A DNA stretch of 41,432 nt from Nitrospirota bacterium (GTDB taxonomy: Bacteria > Nitrospirota > Thermodesulfovibrionia > Thermodesulfovibrionales > UBA9159), in the NCBI GenBank assembly GCA_021790195.1, contig JAJYIF010000027.1, positions 1 through 41,432 of the forward strand, given 5' to 3'. Shown in pieces: positions 26,900 to 41,432 of the stretch. The notes beneath the pieces were generated by a model. That model worked only from the letters and a program-made list of their open reading frames with translations. It had not been told where the DNA came from and made no database searches. Each line of letters begins with the position of its first letter. The first letter of the stretch is position 1. A program made the translations under genes and the position numbers.

Positions 26900-27733
26900 A
26901 TGTGGGAGTATACGAAGAAGGTCAAGGATTTCTTCCTCCATCCCAGAAACGTCGGCGAGATAGAGCAGCCCGATGCGGTAGGGGAGGTGGGCAGCCTGCT
27001 CTGCGGGGACGCGCTCAAGCTGACCCTCAGGATCGACAAGGAGACCGGAAAGATAGCCGATGCCAAATTTCAGACGTTCGGCTGCGCTTCTGCTATAGCA
27101 AGCTCTTCCGTTCTCACGGAACTTATCAAGGGCAAGACTGTTGACGAAGCGCTGAAGATCACCAATCAGGACATAGCGGAATATCTCGGGGGGCTGCCCA
27201 AGGAGAAGATGCACTGCTCCGTCATGGGGCGGGAGGCCCTTGAGGCCGCAGTCGCAAATTACAGGGGCGAAGAAAAGCCCGCGGAAAAAGAAGAGAAGAT
27301 CATCTGCAAGTGCTTTGAGGTCTCCGAAGAAAAGATACGGCGGGTCGCCCGGGAAAATCATCTCACCACAGTCGAAGAGATAACCGACTATACAAAGGCC
27401 GGCGGCGGGTGCGGCTCCTGCATTCCGGCCATCGAGGCGATCCTGAAAGATATCTGGTCCGTCAAACCGGTGTGCGAGGTGACGGCAAGACCCAAGAAGA
27501 TGACTAATCTCCAGAGGATAGCTCTCATCCAGGACATAATAGAAAAAGAGATAAGACCGCAGCTCCAGACTGATGGGGGAGACATCGAGCTGATCGACGT
27601 GGACGGCTGCAGGGTCACTGTTTCGCTTAGGGCGATGTGCGTGGAATGTCCGATGGGCGATGTGACCCTGAAGGGCATCGAGGATAAACTGAGAGAGCTT
27701 GTGAGCGAGGACATCGTTGTGGAGGCCGGATGA
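26900..27733 (+). CDS. nifU: Fe-S cluster assembly scaffold NifU (three-domain)
   Basis: The 277-residue scaffold has the full NifU architecture. The IscU-like domain (1-125) carries C35, C62 and the Cys in 'HCSVMG'. The central BFD-like 2Fe-2S domain carries C136, C138, C171 and C174. The C-terminal Nfu domain carries the CxxC at C247 and C250, here 'CVECPMG'. No nitrogenase gene is in the window, so a housekeeping or stress Fe-S role is more likely than nitrogen fixation; this is inferred from context. The start has no ribosome binding site, and the promoter -10 box ends six bases upstream. ATGA is shared with nifS. Confidence 0.95.
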   Translation: MWEYTKKVKDFFLHPRNVGEIEQPDAVGEVGSLLCGDALKLTLRIDKETGKIADAKFQTFGCASAIASSSVLTELIKGKTVDEALKITNQDIAEYLGGLPKEKMHCSVMGREALEAAVANYRGEEKPAEKEEKIICKCFEVSEEKIRRVARENHLTTVEEITDYTKAGGGCGSCIPAIEAILKDIWSVKPVCEVTARPKKMTNLQRIALIQDIIEKEIRPQLQTDGGDIELIDVDGCRVTVSLRAMCVECPMGDVTLKGIEDKLRELVSEDIVVEAG

Positions 27734-28929
27734 AACCGATCTATCTCGACAATAATGCGACCACCTCTGTGGCCCCTGAAGTGTCTGCTGAGATGCTTCC
27801 CTACGTCAATGAATTCTACGGCAACCCTTCGAGCATGCACACCTTCGGCGGCCAGCTCCATCGCAAGATAGAGGAGGCCAGGGAAAGGGTGGCGGCGCTT
27901 ATCGGGGCAGAGCCCGAAGAGATGATCTTTACCAGCTGCGGCACCGAAAGCGATAACACAGCCGTAATGAGCGCCGTAGAGACGTATCCGCACAAACGCC
28001 ATATCATTACTACGAAGGTTGAGCATCCTGCCGTCCTGAACTTTGCCAAGTATTTTGCGAGAAAAGGGTTCCGCGTCACTTTTGTGCCGGTGGACAATCT
28101 CGGAAGGCTAGACATGGATCTGTTTTACCGCGCCCTCGATGAAGACACCGCTGTTGTCTCTATAATGTATGCAAACAACGAAACAGGCGTGATATTCCCG
28201 ATTCAGGAGATTGGACAGATCCTGCGCGAGAGGAAGGTCCTCTTTCATACCGACGCGGTGCAAGCCGTAGGCAAAGTCCCTGTCAGTATGAAAGAGCTTC
28301 CGGTCGACATGCTTTCTCTTTCGGGACACAAGCTGCACGCTCCGAAGGGAGTGGGCGCACTCTATCTGCGGAAAGGCACACGCTTTTCCCCCTATATTAT
28401 AGGCGGCCACCAGGAAAGGGGCCGGAGGGCCGGCACAGAGAATGTGCCCTCCATTGTCGCTCTGGGTAAGGCGTGCGAGCTTGCAAAGACGGGCCTTGAC
28501 AATGAGGTGCGTTATGTGGGCGGACTCCGCAACAGGCTTGAAGCTGCTTTGCTTCGGTGCTGCCCCGACGCCAGAGTAAACGGCGATACGGAACACCGTC
28601 TTCCGAATACTTCGAACATTAGTTTTGAATATGTGGAAGGCGAGGCGATCCTCCTTAGACTTGACGAATACGGGATATGCGCCTCTTCCGGTTCTGCCTG
28701 TACATCGGGTTCCCTCGAGCCGAGTCATGTGCTGAGGGCGATGGGCGTGCCCTTCACGGCCGTCCACGGCTCCATAAGGTTTTCACTGAGCAGGTACAAT
28801 GAAGAATCCGATGTCGACAAGGTCATTGAAGTCCTTCCGCCGATCATAAAGGAGTTGAGGTCACTTTCGCCTTACGGCAGAGATAAGCTCGCCGCGTGCG
28901 CGCCGGACAGGGAGAGCGGTACAGAGTAA
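27730..28929 (+). CDS. nifS: Cysteine desulfurase NifS
   Basis: A 399-residue PLP enzyme that takes sulfur from cysteine and passes it to NifU. It has 'YLDNNATTSV' at the start, 'TSCGTESDN', 'HTDAVQAVGK', the PLP-binding Lys201 in 'LSGHKLHAPKG', and the persulfide Cys324 in 'ASSGSACTSG'. The loop around the Cys and the pairing with nifU place it in the NifS/IscS group. The ATG overlaps the nifU stop in ATGA. The reading frame has a short extension (YGRDKLAACAPDRE) beyond the family core. Confidence 0.95.
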   Translation: MKPIYLDNNATTSVAPEVSAEMLPYVNEFYGNPSSMHTFGGQLHRKIEEARERVAALIGAEPEEMIFTSCGTESDNTAVMSAVETYPHKRHIITTKVEHPAVLNFAKYFARKGFRVTFVPVDNLGRLDMDLFYRALDEDTAVVSIMYANNETGVIFPIQEIGQILRERKVLFHTDAVQAVGKVPVSMKELPVDMLSLSGHKLHAPKGVGALYLRKGTRFSPYIIGGHQERGRRAGTENVPSIVALGKACELAKTGLDNEVRYVGGLRNRLEAALLRCCPDARVNGDTEHRLPNTSNISFEYVEGEAILLRLDEYGICASSGSACTSGSLEPSHVLRAMGVPFTAVHGSIRFSLSRYNEESDVDKVIEVLPPIIKELRSLSPYGRDKLAACAPDRESGTE

Positions 28930-34299: not shown

Positions 34300-34671
34300 T
34301 TGTTGAATTGCAGGAAGCGCATAGATGGAAAGAGACTCATGGCTGGTCTTCTCATGACTCTATTTGCAGCGTCATTTCTTGCCTGTAACAGCTTTCCTTT
34401 CGGATACGAAAAGATATCTGATATTCTTACGTCGCCAAGTAAATACAACGGCAAGTCAATAAAGATAAAAGGTAAAGTCATAGAATCAGTTATCGCGTTC
34501 GGAGTTGGTTATTTTGCGATAAGTGACGGCACTGCGGCTATAGCTGTGATTCCGGCTAAAACATTTCCGAAAGTCGGTGAAGAGGTGACGATAAGAGGAC
34601 AAGTGAAAAATGCGTTTGTGATTGGTGATAAGAGTTTGACTGTCATAGTTGAAGATACAGGAGGAAAATAA
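34300..34671 (+). CDS. OB-fold-like lipoprotein, first gene of the candidate system
   Basis: A 123-residue protein. Its basic N-terminus and hydrophobic core end in 'SFLAC' (C29), a probable lipobox, so the mature part should be lipid-anchored outside the inner membrane. The rest reads as a small OB barrel: 'YNGKSIKIKGKVIESV', 'YFAISDGTAAIAVI', 'GEEVTIRGQV' and 'LTVIVED', like the tRNA-anti/OB proteins found in envelope proteins. The start is TTG 34300 or 34303, after GGGAGGAAG; ATG 34339 is an alternative that would lose the basic residues. It overlaps the next gene by one base. Its ligand is unknown. Confidence 0.68.
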   Translation: MLNCRKRIDGKRLMAGLLMTLFAASFLACNSFPFGYEKISDILTSPSKYNGKSIKIKGKVIESVIAFGVGYFAISDGTAAIAVIPAKTFPKVGEEVTIRGQVKNAFVIGDKSLTVIVEDTGGK

Positions 34672-35975
34672 TGAGAATCTTAAACACAGTCTGGAGCAAC
34701 AAAGCCCTAATATACATCCTCTTAGTCACGGCTTTATTCACATCCAGCTGTTCTGAAAAAAAAGCAGATATCAAATGGGACGTCGCCGATATAGTTGCCG
34801 CTAAAACGCAACCCGAGTCATCAATAAAAGCAAATATATATGTAGATGCAACCACGTCAATGGCCGGATTTGCGTCAAACCGCGATAGCGTATATAACAG
34901 CTTTCTCAATGATCTTGAAGGCGCTATTATCGCAGGATGGAAGAATGCAAATATTGGGTTTTATAAATTCGGCACAAAAGCGAAAGAACTGACCCGTGAA
35001 CAATTCAGGACTTTCTCGACCCCAAGCTTCTATGCTGAACCAGGCATCTTTGAAAAGACAAATATAGATAGTGTTATCGACGCGATGGACAGCAAACAGG
35101 TAAATATTGTTGTGACAGACCTTTTCCAAAGCGATGGCGATGTGAACGCGATGATTAAGAGTATCAAAGAAGGATGCTTTGCAAAAGGCATTTATATGGG
35201 CATTCTTGGTATTAAGAGCGATTATAGCGGGAAAATCTACGATGCAAAAGTACCGTCATTTCCATTCAAATCGGAGAAAGGAAATGAGGAAACTTACCGT
35301 CCATTTTATGTCCTGATTTTTGGAGACAAGAATAATATAGAGCATCTTTTTGAACAATTGAAAGCAAGCAAAGGGGTAAAAGAGAATAACTTCGTCCTTA
35401 TCTCAAAGTATATAGTTAATAAGTTCGCCGTGTCTCTGACAAAGGACAAGACATCCAAGGATCTGAATATTAACGGCCAGGAAGACAAGAGATATTACAA
35501 ACAGTTCAATTTCACCCTTAAAGAAGGCGGTCGTGAAGGGGTCATGATCGCCGACATTACTTTTGAGAAGATCGCTAAGGCTGCGGATATTTCCGACAAA
35601 GCTATTAACATTTCAGCTTTGCGGAAATTTGCAGCAAAGGGTCAAGCGGCTCCTAAGAATGGAGAGGAGTCAAATGACATAACGGTAAAAGAGTTGAGAG
35701 TCGCCAATGGAAATAAGATCAGCGCCAAACTTTCTGTAACGCCGGGTGATCAGCCGGGAATGTATTCATATCTCGTCTATGTACAGCCATCTCAGGTAAA
35801 CGGCTATATTCCGCCTAAGTGGATAGATGATTTTTCTTCAGATAATCCAACTCCGAAGCATGATGCCAATAAGACCCTTAATCTGAAACCGTTTATAGAG
35901 GGGCTCTTGAATGCAAATGCCGCCGTGGCGCAGCCGAAAATAGTGCAAATGATAATAAATATAAAGAAACTGTAA
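34671..35975 (+). CDS. vWA-like lipoprotein of the candidate system
   Basis: A 434-residue protein with a signal peptide ending at 'FTSSC' (C27), probably lipid-anchored in the periplasm. Residues 50-200 resemble a von Willebrand A domain: the first strand 'IYVDATTSM' has D59-x-T61-x-S63 in place of the DxSxS metal-binding motif, and the later strand 'NIVVTDLFQ' carries T149 and D150. A second, beta-rich region with 'SVTPGDQPGMYSYLVYV' fills the C-terminus. vWA domains bind partner proteins through a metal ion. It has a strong ribosome binding site (AGGAGG) and a start overlapping the previous stop. I do not recognise a named family beyond the vWA-like fold. Confidence 0.68.
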   Translation: MRILNTVWSNKALIYILLVTALFTSSCSEKKADIKWDVADIVAAKTQPESSIKANIYVDATTSMAGFASNRDSVYNSFLNDLEGAIIAGWKNANIGFYKFGTKAKELTREQFRTFSTPSFYAEPGIFEKTNIDSVIDAMDSKQVNIVVTDLFQSDGDVNAMIKSIKEGCFAKGIYMGILGIKSDYSGKIYDAKVPSFPFKSEKGNEETYRPFYVLIFGDKNNIEHLFEQLKASKGVKENNFVLISKYIVNKFAVSLTKDKTSKDLNINGQEDKRYYKQFNFTLKEGGREGVMIADITFEKIAKAADISDKAINISALRKFAAKGQAAPKNGEESNDITVKELRVANGNKISAKLSVTPGDQPGMYSYLVYVQPSQVNGYIPPKWIDDFSSDNPTPKHDANKTLNLKPFIEGLLNANAAVAQPKIVQMIINIKKL

Positions 35976-35987
35976 AGGAGGTCACGT

Positions 35988-36449
35988 ATGAACAAAAATC
36001 CAATGAATTATCTGATTACGTTGGCGGGAGGGGCGATATTGTGGGTTATTACTGCAGTTGTATTGGGCGGTGTAATAGGCGATAAAGTTTCTCTTTCTTC
36101 AATGAGTGTAGAGGAGTTTCTCGCAAGATATCGGATTGTATTGGCGATTGCTGCGCTCATTGGAATTACGAATTCCCTTTACTGGTTTTACTACGGTAGC
36201 AAAGATTCCACTGCTGGGGCGTTGGAGCGAGCAAAAAAGATTTGGAATATATCATTCATAATACAAATTGTAGCGTCAGCAGGTATTGTATTGGCGTTAG
36301 TGTTGATGTTGATGACACAGGGGGTAGCCCCTATTTATTACATTATGCTTTTCGGCCTTGCAGCTCTTCATACCTTTATTTTTTTCTGGATTAGTACACT
36401 ACTGATGTCGCCTACAAATGTCGAGCGACTACCGCTTTGCAAGAGATAA
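35988..36449 (+). CDS. Four-helix inner-membrane protein of the candidate system
   Basis: A 153-residue protein with four hydrophobic segments (about 8-30, 48-69, 86-108 and 115-140) and short loops. The loop after the second segment is charged (KDSTAGALERAKK). No known domain was recognised. A strong ribosome binding site (AAAGGAGG) lies 12 bases after the vWA-like gene. It is the natural candidate for linking the lipoproteins outside with the two NTPases inside; that role is inferred only from position. Confidence 0.7.
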   Translation: MNKNPMNYLITLAGGAILWVITAVVLGGVIGDKVSLSSMSVEEFLARYRIVLAIAALIGITNSLYWFYYGSKDSTAGALERAKKIWNISFIIQIVASAGIVLALVLMLMTQGVAPIYYIMLFGLAALHTFIFFWISTLLMSPTNVERLPLCKR

Positions 36450-36461
36450 AAGGGGGCGTAT

Positions 36462-38021
36462 ATGTCTAAAAATTATTTGATTGGGATAGGCGGTACAGGT
36501 GCAAGAGTTATAGAGGCAATGGTGTTCATGTGTGCTGCTGGTTATGGGCCGGATGAGCTGTCTATTTTTCTTGTGGATCCTGACAAAGGTAATGGTAATT
36601 TCCGCAGAACCAAAGAATTGATAGAGACCTATACATATTGCAGGCGAAATTATCAGAGGATTGATAACGGTGGGCTTTTTAAAACTGACATAAAGATTCC
36701 AGACCCTATCGTATGGAATATATTTGAGGATGAGAGGGAAAATCAGGATACGACATTGGCAGCATATATCAATTTTGGAGGTTTGCAAAGAGATAAGGCT
36801 GATTTTGCGTCGGTGCTGTTTTCCAATGATGAACTTGAAACGCCACTCAACAAAGGCTTCCGTGGGCATCCGTCCATTGGCTCGGTTGTAATGTCTAACA
36901 TAGATGAGAGCAAATATCCGTGGAAACTGCTTTTTGATGACATGCCTACTGCCGGTCAAAATGAGATTAAACTTTTTTTGGTCGGCTCGATTTTTGGAGG
37001 CACTGGCGCTGCCGGGGTTCCAACTTTCGGCTCAAAGGACATCATTAAATATCACAAAGAGGCTGATCTTGGCAGTAATAAGAGTAAGGTATTGTTGGGC
37101 AGTGCACTTATCTTACCGTATTTTAGTTTTGCTTCCGATGTGGATACAGACGAGAAGATGTTTGTTACACCAAAGGATTTTCCAATGGCGACAAAGGCTG
37201 CGCTGGATTACTATGGAACTAAAAAGGAAGAACTCGGATTTGATCAAATCTATTTCGTCGGGGATAGCGGTGGTCAGAATGTGGGAAACTTCAGCGCCGG
37301 TAGCGACACACAGGAAAATCTACCGCATTTCATAGAAATTGTGAGCGGCCTGACAGCGTATGATTTTTTTGAACAAGAACCAGTCGCCGATATTCCTATA
37401 AAGCAATATTTTGTAGGAGGCAGACCCGAGGATGCTGTCACATGGAATAACTTACCATTTGGTCGCGAATTTGACGACAACAGCGGGAAAAAAATGCAGC
37501 GGGATAAGAAATTTAAATCAGACGTGGTAACTATGTCTGTGTTTACTTATGCCATGTGCACGCATGTATGCCGTGATGACAAAAAGGGCGTTCTAGATAC
37601 CGAGAATGATAGTCTCCCATGGTTCGCCAATAATTTTCCTAAGGCGGCACGAACTGACGATAACAAAAAAATGGTAATTAAATTTTGCGAGTTTTCCAAG
37701 TTGTTTTTAGCATGGATATGTGCGATAGGCCAGAATGAGAGAGTAAAGTTGATCGATAAAAATAAGATCGTTGACGGTAATATTTTGGTTGGGCAAGACA
37801 TCAAAGTGTTTGATGATAATAAGAACGGTGGCTTACATGAACGGTTCATAGGAGATATTGTTGCCGGAGGCGGTTCAAAAGAGTCAAAACCTTTTTCCAC
37901 GCTAATAAGCAGATTAAATGATATCAATCTGAAAAAGGCGAATGTTTCACCTGTGAGTAAGGTCATTAGTGCAGTATATCAAAGTGCGAGACGCTTTTCC
38001 GAGGAAAACTATAAACTGTGA
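36462..38021 (+). CDS. Tubulin/FtsZ-superfamily GTPase-like protein
   Basis: A 519-residue protein. The N-terminal 'YLIGIGGTGARVIEAM' is the first nucleotide-binding loop of the tubulin/FtsZ fold, with G8-x-G10-G11-T-G13, followed by an acidic strand end 'IFLVDPDKGN'. The tubulin signature appears as 'GSIFGGTGAAG' (175-185), close to GGGTGTG. I could not find the catalytic T7 loop (NxDxxD), so it may bind GTP without FtsZ-like hydrolysis, or complete its site differently. The C-terminal half has no recognised domain. It resembles the 'tubulin-like' (Tubulin_2/FtsZl) proteins outside FtsZ proper. Ribosome binding site AGGGGG, 12 bases after the membrane-protein gene. Confidence 0.75.
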   Translation: MSKNYLIGIGGTGARVIEAMVFMCAAGYGPDELSIFLVDPDKGNGNFRRTKELIETYTYCRRNYQRIDNGGLFKTDIKIPDPIVWNIFEDERENQDTTLAAYINFGGLQRDKADFASVLFSNDELETPLNKGFRGHPSIGSVVMSNIDESKYPWKLLFDDMPTAGQNEIKLFLVGSIFGGTGAAGVPTFGSKDIIKYHKEADLGSNKSKVLLGSALILPYFSFASDVDTDEKMFVTPKDFPMATKAALDYYGTKKEELGFDQIYFVGDSGGQNVGNFSAGSDTQENLPHFIEIVSGLTAYDFFEQEPVADIPIKQYFVGGRPEDAVTWNNLPFGREFDDNSGKKMQRDKKFKSDVVTMSVFTYAMCTHVCRDDKKGVLDTENDSLPWFANNFPKAARTDDNKKMVIKFCEFSKLFLAWICAIGQNERVKLIDKNKIVDGNILVGQDIKVFDDNKNGGLHERFIGDIVAGGGSKESKPFSTLISRLNDINLKKANVSPVSKVISAVYQSARRFSEENYKL

Positions 38022-38039: not shown

Positions 38040-41000
38040 ATGCCTATACATTATTATTTACCCAAACTGGAAGGTGAGAAGGATATTAAGCCGCCGACCA
38101 CAGGCAGGTGGGAAAAACAGGACGGTGGCATATTCAGCGCTATCAGTAATGCGATAGAAGTCGCCGAAAGGGCAGAAGACCTGCATGTCAGTTCTGTGCC
38201 GGATATATGGGCGCGCCCGTTGATTTTTCAGTCTGCTTTAAGAAAGAACTCGCAGAATCCTCTTAGAGCAAGATTTAAACAGGAATGGAGAGGTTTGCTG
38301 AGCTTATTAGCGTTAGCTGACTATAAGTATAAGAATATAGTGACAGTTGTTCCAGTCACCTGGGATGAAGGGAGATTTTCTAAGGCATTATCAAAATTAA
38401 AGCCCCATCGTGAAGGCATTCAGCTTGAAAAAGACACCCGCTATCTATGGACTGATGTCTTTCTTATCAAATTCGGCGAGATCCCCGTAGGTGCATTTTC
38501 GCCGGTTACTCTTGTCTATACTGCGGTCGCCTACAATCAACAATTGAAAAATACGAACTTGGATATAAAGGATGATTATGGTTTTCTTCGTCCACCCTTA
38601 AAAGGTGAGGACAGCTATGAACTTATCGGAGAATGGCTGGAAGTCCTGCTCAGTAAACTTGACCAATCAGATGATGAAAGACGCGATGGTCTCCTCTATA
38701 CTAATGAAAAAAATACACATCGCGATGTCACAACTAATATCTTGGAACTGCTTAAAGAATGGCGGAATGAAATCAGAGGAGATTTTGACGGTCAGGAAAT
38801 TGACTCTGAAAAAGTAAGAGTGGTTGATACGCCTATAATTACCCATTCGGTTCTTGACAGGTATCAAATATATCGTGCCCTTTTATGCCCGCTGGAAAAA
38901 GAAGACATAGGCGCTTATGCGGCTGTCGGGAGATCGGATTTTTCTCTCGCCATGAAAAGAAATTACAGCGAATATGATGAAGTTGTCATAATTACGGAAA
39001 ATCTGCTCAAAAAAACGAATAAAAGAATTTGGGAGCCGAAGGATAAGGGTCCAATAAAACTGAGCGATTTAAACAGCAGCGATGCAAGGGCAGCATTGGA
39101 AAAATTCTTTAAGCCGGATGAAGACGGCAAGGGTAATGAAGTAAAGATTCACAGCGGTTATAAACTTGCTGATGAGAAGGCTGTGTGGATAAGACCTGAG
39201 AAATATTTTTTGACTGATATACTCCTCAAAGGGAAAAGTGGCGACCTTCTCGTAGATTCCGAGTCCGAATATAATGCAGGCAAAACAAAGTATATCCTAC
39301 CGTTCAAGAAAGAGATACTTAATTTCTTCTCATGGGAAGACATAGGGAAGTTAAAACCCGATTACAAAGAAGACGGCGAGAACGTGACCTTTTCCTTCCA
39401 ACTACCGATAAGGGGCGGCGATTCAGAGACGGTAAAGAAGCTTTATAAGAAAAAAGGCCCCATCGTAAGCGAAGGTTCAATAACAGACATTGATGCTCCT
39501 ATTGTTGAAATCTTTCCGAATTATCTTGACCATCACTGGCGCAGGTATTATCTATTTCACGCAAGTGCTGAAGATGTGTCAGTTGCGCCTGTTGTTTTTG
39601 GAAAAGATAAAGGCTCGCCTCGTCCTGTTACTGAATCACGAGAGCATGAGGATAAAGAACTCAAACAAAAAATTAGAATCACTGAAATAAGCGGGGATAA
39701 TGCATTTCCAGAGGGATTGGAGATAAAGATTGATTCAGATAAGAAAGCCGGGCTTGTGATAATTCAGCATCAACTCCAATTGCCAGACCTCTCGAATAAA
39801 TGGAAAGTTGGCATTGATTTTGGAACATCAAATACTAATATCTTTAGGCAGAGCGGTACATCCGATACTGCAGTAAAGTGGCGGTTTGAGTTTCCCAAAT
39901 ATGTCAGAAGGATCTGTACAAGTAGTGATGATATTAGAAAAAGGGTTGCTCAGAATTATTTTGTCCCTCTTGAATCCATTGATCTTCCTGTCCCTACAAC
40001 ACTAAAAATATTTAACCTTGCGCGTAAGAGCCATATGTTGTTAGATTATTTTGCCTTTTTCCCTTCAGCTTATCAATTGCCGCACAATGTTTATTCCGAC
40101 ATCAAATGGGATGTTGAAGGTGAGCGCAAGACCGAATATTTTATTGAAAGCATTCTTTTCTTAATTCTCGTCGAAGCTGTTGATCAAAGAATTTCAGAGA
40201 TTGAGTTCCTATGCTCATACCCAAAGGCTTTTTCGCCAAATAATATAACTATGTTAAAGGGCGAATGGGAGAACGTGTTTAAGAAAATGTTGAATGAATC
40301 TTATCGGATCATTGATAAATATGAGAAGAAGGAAGACGAAAGAGACAATCCAATAATAGTTAATAGAGATAGCCAAATGAAACCTGCATTTGAAACAGAG
40401 GGGATAGCCGCAGGAGAATTTTTTGGAAGCGAGAAAACTATATCCGATATTACGGAAAGAGCCAATAAAGATATCGCTGCCATATGCCTCGATATTGGAG
40501 GCGGAACGACCGACATTAGTATATGGTATGGAGGGGATATCAGATTTGACGCCTCCGTAACATTGGCTGGTCGTCAAATAGCACAACTATTCCAAAAAAA
40601 CGGAAGACTCGCCGATTTTCTTTTTAGTCGAAAAGCGGCAATTGCCCTTGATGAGAAAAAAAATGAGCCTGCATTTTTCGCTGCAAGACTAAATCTTATA
40701 TTGAGAAACGAGGAAAAGACAATCCATGATATGCTGCTAAAGCATGCAAATCAAAAAGACATCCAATGGCTGAGGCAAATTATTGCTCTGGAGTTTTGCG
40801 CTATATCATTTTATACTGCGATGCTAACTGCTGCCGCTAATGACATAATAGGGGAGAATCAGCTTTTAGACAGGATTGGCCAAAAGGCAATCGGCTTGCA
40901 TTGGGGAGGCAACGCGGCAAAACTTATTAATTGGATTGACTTTGGGAAATATGATAGAAACGGCGTTGGGCATAAAATGCTTAGTGCTGCTTATTTTAAT

Positions 41001-41390
41001 TGTTTGAAAGATGTTGGAGTTAAACCAAATGCCCTGTCTCACTTCCAGTCTCCGTGGCATAAAAGCGAAGCGGCCGGAGGATTGGTGGTTATGGATATGG
41101 GGAAATATATTTCGTCGCGTGAGACTTCTGAAACTAACGCATCAGATTGGCATGACATGGACGCACAAAAGGAAAAAGATAGAAAACTTTGCGCTGACGG
41201 GATTGTCTGCGGTGAGGTTATAGAGTTATCAGATGGTAGAAGAATTGCTGCTACGGATATGATCACCGCAAATGATCTTTTTGATAATAAAAACAAAACA
41301 AGGTTTAAATTGTCATTTTTCAGCTGCATTCCCCCACCTGGTTTTCAGGGTCATTCCCCCAGGTGCAGCATCCTATCCTCGATTTTTTAG
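38040..41390 (+). CDS. Large protein with C-terminal actin/Hsp70-type ATPase domain (3' end replaced by IS sequence)
   Basis: The frame encodes 1116 residues. Residues 1-580 have no recognised domain ('SVPDIWARPLIFQSAL', 'EWRGLLSLLALAD'). An actin/Hsp70/SrfB-like ATPase follows: phosphate-1 loop D593-F-G-T-S-N-T, phosphate-2 loop D818-I-G-G-G-T-T-D825, and an adenosine-type motif with G956-G957-N958 in 'LHWGGNAAK'. Hsp70 proteins carry this domain first; here it is last, behind a long new region, somewhat as in SrfB-like virulence factors. From 41311 the DNA is an IS21-like end, so about the last 26 residues (from 'SFFSCIPPPG') are not native and the true C-terminus is lost. Ribosome binding site GGAGG, 18 bases after the tubulin-like gene. 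It may still fold if the missing part is small. Confidence 0.78.
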   Translation: MPIHYYLPKLEGEKDIKPPTTGRWEKQDGGIFSAISNAIEVAERAEDLHVSSVPDIWARPLIFQSALRKNSQNPLRARFKQEWRGLLSLLALADYKYKNIVTVVPVTWDEGRFSKALSKLKPHREGIQLEKDTRYLWTDVFLIKFGEIPVGAFSPVTLVYTAVAYNQQLKNTNLDIKDDYGFLRPPLKGEDSYELIGEWLEVLLSKLDQSDDERRDGLLYTNEKNTHRDVTTNILELLKEWRNEIRGDFDGQEIDSEKVRVVDTPIITHSVLDRYQIYRALLCPLEKEDIGAYAAVGRSDFSLAMKRNYSEYDEVVIITENLLKKTNKRIWEPKDKGPIKLSDLNSSDARAALEKFFKPDEDGKGNEVKIHSGYKLADEKAVWIRPEKYFLTDILLKGKSGDLLVDSESEYNAGKTKYILPFKKEILNFFSWEDIGKLKPDYKEDGENVTFSFQLPIRGGDSETVKKLYKKKGPIVSEGSITDIDAPIVEIFPNYLDHHWRRYYLFHASAEDVSVAPVVFGKDKGSPRPVTESREHEDKELKQKIRITEISGDNAFPEGLEIKIDSDKKAGLVIIQHQLQLPDLSNKWKVGIDFGTSNTNIFRQSGTSDTAVKWRFEFPKYVRRICTSSDDIRKRVAQNYFVPLESIDLPVPTTLKIFNLARKSHMLLDYFAFFPSAYQLPHNVYSDIKWDVEGERKTEYFIESILFLILVEAVDQRISEIEFLCSYPKAFSPNNITMLKGEWENVFKKMLNESYRIIDKYEKKEDERDNPIIVNRDSQMKPAFETEGIAAGEFFGSEKTISDITERANKDIAAICLDIGGGTTDISIWYGGDIRFDASVTLAGRQIAQLFQKNGRLADFLFSRKAAIALDEKKNEPAFFAARLNLILRNEEKTIHDMLLKHANQKDIQWLRQIIALEFCAISFYTAMLTAAANDIIGENQLLDRIGQKAIGLHWGGNAAKLINWIDFGKYDRNGVGHKMLSAAYFNCLKDVGVKPNALSHFQSPWHKSEAAGGLVVMDMGKYISSRETSETNASDWHDMDAQKEKDRKLCADGIVCGEVIELSDGRRIAATDMITANDLFDNKNKTRFKLSFFSCIPPPGFQGHSPRCSILSSIF

Positions 41391-41432
41391 CATAGGTTGT
41401 AGAACATAATCAAGCCTGTGCCTTTCTTTTTC
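41311..41432. mobile_element. End of an IS21-like insertion sequence
   Basis: The segment starts TGTCATTTTTCAG and carries tandem copies of a CATTCCCCCA word, an arrangement typical of the multiple terminal repeats of IS21-family elements. It interrupts the ATPase gene. On the minus strand a frame is open from the window edge to a TAG at 41373-41375 (ending 'RLDYVLQPMLKNRG'), which could be the tail of an element protein. The other end and any target duplication are outside the window. The family call rests on memory of such ends, not on a search. Confidence 0.6.
41317..41366. repeat. Two tandem 25-bp terminal repeats
   Basis: Two adjacent 25-base units (41317-41341 and 41342-41366) agree at 19 positions; both hold TTTTCAG, then CATTCCCCCA. 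They are direct repeats, as expected for transposase-binding sites at the end of an IS21-like element. Confidence 0.7.

Follow-up and report, generated by a model that had tools for sequence, protein, structure and literature searches.

Tubulin_2 proteins (PF13809) are distant bacterial relatives of tubulin and form a known, little-studied family. In the description of the FtsZl1-type group (Makarova and Koonin 2010, PMC2875224), the T6-H7/T7 region was not identifiable by sequence, and whether it is missing or merely diverged was left undecided. The window (the whole 41,432-nucleotide stretch analyzed here, i.e., the entire contig C6, one of the 54 contigs of its genome) encodes a diverged protein of this group. 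Its gene lies within the following cassette:

34671 to 35975, plus strand: vWA-type protein of 434 aa with a signal peptide, a lipobox (TSSC), and a MIDAS-like DATTS motif; homologs in relatives share the position and the motif
35988 to 36449, plus strand: small multi-helix membrane protein of 153 aa; the same place and size in relatives, with weak sequence conservation
36462 to 38021, plus strand: tubulin-like protein (Tubulin_2/FtsZl1 type) of 519 aa, assigned from the open reading frame and its translation, PF13809, and the AF2 core model
38040 to 41390, plus strand: actin-like protein of 1116 codons, closest to FtsA (E = 5e-6) and MreB (2e-5) with profile A4

The window protein shares several features with the FtsZl1 group: it is a diverged GTPase of the tubulin type in which T1 and T4 are clear but T7 cannot be recognized from the sequence, and a vWA gene adjoins; some FtsZl1 operons also include OmpA-domain genes (PMC2875224). 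Unlike the FtsZl1 type member (~1000 aa), the window protein has ~500 aa and no long coiled coil in its model, no kinase or GTPase gene adjoins, and the gene is paired with an actin-like gene, of which we found no mention in the available part of PMC2875224. It also scores below the Pfam cutoff for Tubulin_2. The locus recalls FtsZ and FtsA in that a tubulin-type GTPase gene adjoins that of an FtsA/MreB-type actin and in that a T1-T4-T5-H7-T7 order can be matched, but the protein has neither NxDxxD nor the FtsZ C-terminal domain, and the actin is fused to an extra part of ~590 aa. Tubulin-domain and vWA genes also occur together in the tubulin/HSP70 conflict systems around GAP1-N2 GTPases, in whose related neighborhoods HSP70 (actin-fold) genes are found (Kaur et al. 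2020, PMC7159879); unlike those systems, which are described from firmicutes and actinobacteria, the window locus has no GAP1-type GTPase and its tubulin has no C-terminal coiled coil. The cassettes of many relatives end in ZorA-like and ZorB-like genes, as in Zorya. However, no other Zorya gene was seen, Zorya does not include a tubulin/actin pair, and no ZorA/ZorB-like gene turned up in the window genome, where the contig ends. A search of open-license papers found no description of a tubulin, actin, and vWA cassette, often accompanied by a ZorA/ZorB-like motor.

The tubulin-like gene is a single, intact open reading frame (519 codons) that starts at an ATG preceded by a ribosome-binding site. 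Tubulin_2 was the sole family that Pfam gave for its product (E = 0.0019; 17.9 bits, under the curated cutoff of 27), with no match to PF00091 or FtsZ_C. Of 64 relatives, 38 match PF00091 and 59 match PF13809, the latter at E values of 0.01 or lower (best, 1.3e-12). A canonical FtsZ (L136; 418 aa; T7 motif NVDFADV) and a canonical FtsA are encoded separately in the genome. Close-relative scans of genome contigs and viral contigs with the single protein as a query gave no match. An alignment query did, recovering at least 564 relatives in genome contigs, of which 80 loci were kept; alignment-based searches added five relatives on viral contigs and six plasmid records, and no match was obtained in the phage records searched. 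The five IMG/VR viral contigs (L098-L102), which may be genuine viruses or islands in a host genome, carry the tubulin-like and actin-like genes together. Among the matches listed, the taxa include Cyanobacteria, Bacteroidota, Selenomonadaceae, Poribacteria, Pelagibacteraceae, Aminicenantes, Acidobacteriota, Nitrospirae, and others. The cassette also occurs in the streamlined genomes of Pelagibacteraceae (L050, L053, L058, and L062), where an accessory system would not be expected. Within the window's class, the distribution is patchy (~5 of 230 genomes).

The order of vWA lipoprotein, membrane protein, tubulin-like protein, and FtsA/MreB-like actin is recurrent, and the cassette spans Nitrospirae, Acidobacteriota, Bacteroidota, Cyanobacteria, Poribacteria, Pelagibacteraceae, and Selenomonadaceae. 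Of 91 loci among the matches listed, 59 have a vWA gene upstream and 72 an actin-like gene downstream; a MotA/ExbB-like gene follows in 21 (counted with a model built on seven of these same 21 loci), and a MotB-like motif follows in 15. The MotB-like proteins match PADLOC ZorB (up to 2.4e-15) and, in Pfam, OmpA. At three loci (L014:14354-16204, L015:14715-17251, and L018:14960-17461), two further genes come after the cassette; their products, one MotA/ExbB-like with a long coiled coil and the other MotB/OmpA-like, match the ZorA and ZorB models. The same pair is present at L020, L028, L074, L082, and L085. Several Selenomonadaceae loci with a W-x-D motif (L021, L022, L025, L026, L031, L034, L035, L051, and L067) have no actin-like gene within their flanks; the same is true of L029, in which the motif is I-x-D. 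In some cyanobacteria (L041:17314-19374, L054:16403-18595, L057, and L069), a second, shorter downstream protein matches the actin-like profile, apparently through its non-actin N-terminal part. In the window, the vWA-type protein had no Pfam match, and the actin-like protein comprises an FtsA/MreB-type ATPase domain (residues ~590 to 1090) and a unique N-terminal part of ~590 aa. Directly 5' of the vWA gene lies a small putative lipoprotein (34300-34671; lipobox-like LAC; weak CcmE-like match), of which relatives showed no conserved counterpart in their cassettes. The gene at 27730-28929 gave a match to DndA/SspA, a reading that was rejected; it is read as an ordinary NifS/IscS gene because a nifU gene precedes it.

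The original prediction, made from the sequence of the window, held that both nucleotide-binding glycine loops are clear, and across the family the two hardly vary. The visible part of the site is larger than had been claimed, because T2, T3, T5, and T6-like segments and H7 can also be placed (invariance and ≥90% conservation refer to the 64 relatives):

36483 to 36500, plus strand: T1 glycine loop, residues 8-13 (GIGGTG); G10, G11, and G13 invariant
36576 to 36596, plus strand: T2-like segment, residues 39-45 (DPDKGNG); D39 invariant, D41, N44, and G45 at ≥90%
36855 to 36881, plus strand: T3-like segment, residues 132-140 (GFRGHPSIG); G132 and G140 invariant, aligned with FtsZ GLGAGSNPEIG
36984 to 37016, plus strand: T4 glycine loop, residues 175-185 (GSIFGGTGAAG); S176 and F178-A183 invariant, aligned with FtsZ AGMGGGTGTGA
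37113 to 37124, plus strand: T5-like segment, residues 218-221 (LPYF); Y220 invariant, L218, P219, and F221 at ≥90%, aligned with FtsZ TKPF
37311 to 37373, plus strand: T6-like Q284-x-N286 followed by H7 (residues 290-304); Q284 invariant, N286 and E292 at ≥90%

Structure prediction, which had been proposed as a check, returned a tubulin-type GTPase fold. The best 50 PDB matches of the AF2 core (residues 1-372; pLDDT 85.1, pTM 0.88) were all tubulin, FtsZ, CetZ, or TubZ, with a best E value of 2.9e-5, probabilities of 0.99-1.0, and TM-scores of only ~0.3, perhaps owing to inserts and domain placement. The full-length model (pLDDT 81.8, pTM 0.90) gave a best PDB E value of 1e-3, with other nucleotide-binding folds among the lower matches; a BFVD fold search gave weak tubulin/PhuZ-like matches only, and a PDB search with the single protein gave none. 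H7 (residues 290-304) is a helix in both AF2 models. After H8, the C-terminal part of the model is all helical, with no extended FtsZ tail and with helices of at most ~27 residues in the two models; most FtsZl1 members have an extended coiled coil together with a helical C-terminal domain. The protein is longer than FtsZ, as had been noted (519 versus 418 aa for the FtsZ of the same genome), but the extra length is not solely C-terminal, since the location of T4 at about residue 176 implies an insert between T2 and T4.

The NxDxxD loop that completes the GTPase site of the neighboring subunit had been reported as not apparent. The literal motif is indeed missing: neither NxDxxD nor the relaxed form N-x-[DE]-x-x-[DE] occurs anywhere in the 519-aa protein. 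At the level of the family this point is not new, as it was already published in 2010 (PMC2875224). The further step, that the loop itself is absent, is probably wrong, because the family has a conserved loop at the T7 position, and the GTP-splitting loop is probably present in a diverged form:

37437 to 37457, plus strand: T7-position motif, residues 326-332 (VTWNNLP), the sole well-conserved block between H7 and H8, aligned by HMM-HMM comparison with FtsZ NVDFADV
37449 to 37451, plus strand: codon 330, AAC (Asn); Asp in 77 of 91 relatives

Across the 91 full-length sequences among the matches listed, the H7-H8 stretch is variable outside a single block that reads h-x-[W/F]-x-D-[L/F/I]-P: column 328 is W or F in 86, column 330 is Asp in 77 (His in 7, Ser in 4, Asn in 2, and Lys in 1), and column 332 is Pro in 71. 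We compared this family with an FtsZ profile built from the genome's own FtsZ and its relatives, and then supplemented with diverse FtsZ sequences from plasmid records. In two alignments that include the window protein, FtsZ NVDFADV aligns in register with VTWNNLP; with the window protein left out, the profile of all 90 relatives places its motif Asp exactly opposite FtsZ D212. The same pairing was obtained with 19 of 20 random 30-sequence subsets, at weak E values (0.006-0.04) and from subsets that overlap and thus are not independent. Of four clade profiles, a mixed set of other lineages placed D212 on the motif Asp, whereas the Selenomonadaceae, Bacteroidota, and Cyanobacteria profiles alone placed it elsewhere or nowhere, and the global mode of hhalign gave no useful alignment of FtsZ with the family. 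The FtsZ motif has two acids (D209 and D212), of which the window family conserves one. By these profile alignments, the post-H7 block is the likely T7 equivalent. A tree from which the motif columns were excluded implies seven or more changes of the Asp state, so Asp is not indispensable and its loss recurs in nature; beta-tubulin, a known member of the superfamily, also lacks the T7 acid. This tree gives the window protein a long branch (1.14) and no support for its placement.

The consequences of Asn330 can be approached through mutants of characterized proteins, for which we take alpha-tubulin E254 and FtsZ D212 to be equivalent positions. The D212A form of Escherichia coli FtsZ has 7% of its GTPase activity left, and D275A of Arabidopsis thaliana FtsZ1 has ~15% (PMC8142252); FtsZ D212N yields stable polymers (PMC12754632), and alpha-tubulin E254N shows no GTP hydrolysis and grows without catastrophe (PMC8764682). 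Because D212N FtsZ and E254N alpha-tubulin hydrolyze poorly and their polymers are stable, a slow or locked polymer would be the likeliest outcome for the window protein, which may bind GTP without splitting it well. The slow or non-hydrolyzing polymer, one of the options originally put forward, is thus a reasonable prediction, given Asn330 in the window protein and Asp in 77 of 91 relatives, while the option of a site completed by the actin-like partner gained no positive support.

The reading that we prefer, with about even confidence, is that of a diverged Tubulin_2 GTPase in a membrane-linked vWA/actin cassette, with a T7-like loop in which Asn would lead to a slow or non-hydrolyzing filament. 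The loop after H7 would be the T7 equivalent and, in most members, would complete the site of GTP hydrolysis in the next subunit of the filament. In the window protein, with Asn in place of Asp, the filament would form on GTP and hydrolyze it slowly or not at all. The tubulin-like and actin-like filaments would act at the inner membrane and would signal or transmit force to the periplasmic vWA lipoprotein, with an ion-driven motor presumably often added to the cassette in relatives. Envelope remodeling and phage defense each fit as a function. The patchy distribution and the likeness to ZorAB fit defense, but the 77 flanking genes inspected, for which there was no control set, are mostly ordinary and show no clear defense enrichment, so defense is not supported by context. 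A broader proposal appears doubtful to us, namely, that the tubulin-like protein, the FtsA-like actin, and a periplasmic vWA sensor go together, in many lineages with a ZorAB-type ion motor, and that natural replacement of the T7 acid in several lineages, including that of the window, gives GTP-locked, stable filaments.

An explanation that we rate somewhat short of even, and which is compatible with the preferred reading of the family, is that the local copy is decaying, i.e., that an insertion sequence broke the actin-like gene and that the change from Asp to Asn is drift without selection. It concerns the following feature:

41311 to 41432, no strand assigned: terminus of an insertion-sequence-like repeat present in multiple copies, TGTCATTTTTCAGCTGCATTCCCCC...; eight other contig ends of the genome carry the identical sequence

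The flanks of these copies differ up to the same base, and the repeat is most simply interpreted as the end of a multi-copy insertion sequence. Its transposase was not seen, and a plasmid search with this end gave no match. A related 42-base end (83% identity) is present in several more contigs, mostly near contig ends. Homology of the actin-like gene ends by 41333, at position 1029 of 1088 in the profile; thus, ~60 residues before the homologous end are replaced by 26 read from the repeat. Neither a 3' remainder of this gene nor a MotA-like gene was found elsewhere in the genome. Because the insertion-sequence end cuts the actin-like gene and the contig stops, the local system may be damaged or nonfunctional, and the long branch of the window protein and the retention of Asp by relatives of the same order (L014, L015, and L016) likewise favor decay. 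On the other hand, the other three cassette genes (vWA, membrane, and tubulin-like) are undamaged and have good ribosome-binding sites, the ATPase motifs of the actin-like protein are intact, and the missing 3' part of its gene may lie past the repeat in unassembled sequence. In addition, 13 other members, several with complete cassettes, have Asn, His, Ser, or Lys at column 330. The insertion is probably recent, since the other reading frames are open.

It is rather unlikely, in our estimate, that the protein acts as a GTP-binding switch, monomeric or dimeric, for which a T7 loop was never required, with W-x-D-L-P as a structural element that packs the post-H7 loop and has no hydrolytic role. 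Unlike FtsZ or tubulin, the protein has a short H7 of 15 residues and an all-helical C-terminal part; a single acid is conserved, with the neighboring W and P nearly as conserved, as expected of a structural turn; and the repeated changes of the Asp state on the tree are in keeping with such a role. The 2010 authors retained the absence of filaments as an option, but they also stated that all characterized FtsZ-tubulin proteins form filaments (PMC2875224). The alignment of FtsZ D212 with the motif Asp in nearly all resampled profiles also argues against a switch. It is very improbable that the actin-like partner, in place of a second tubulin-like subunit, completes the GTPase site in trans: the two genes adjoin in most loci, but many Selenomonadaceae copies keep W-x-D with no actin-like gene nearby, the actin-like gene is truncated in the window genome, and we know of no actin that donates catalytic residues to a tubulin.

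For the clade that includes the window protein, the alignment favors a diverged over a missing T6-H7/T7 region. The motif Asp is a single residue to mutate, and the natural Asp and Asn/His/Ser versions allow comparison. The recurrent tubulin, actin, and vWA cassette represents a concrete, widespread system in which envelope remodeling or phage defense can be tested.
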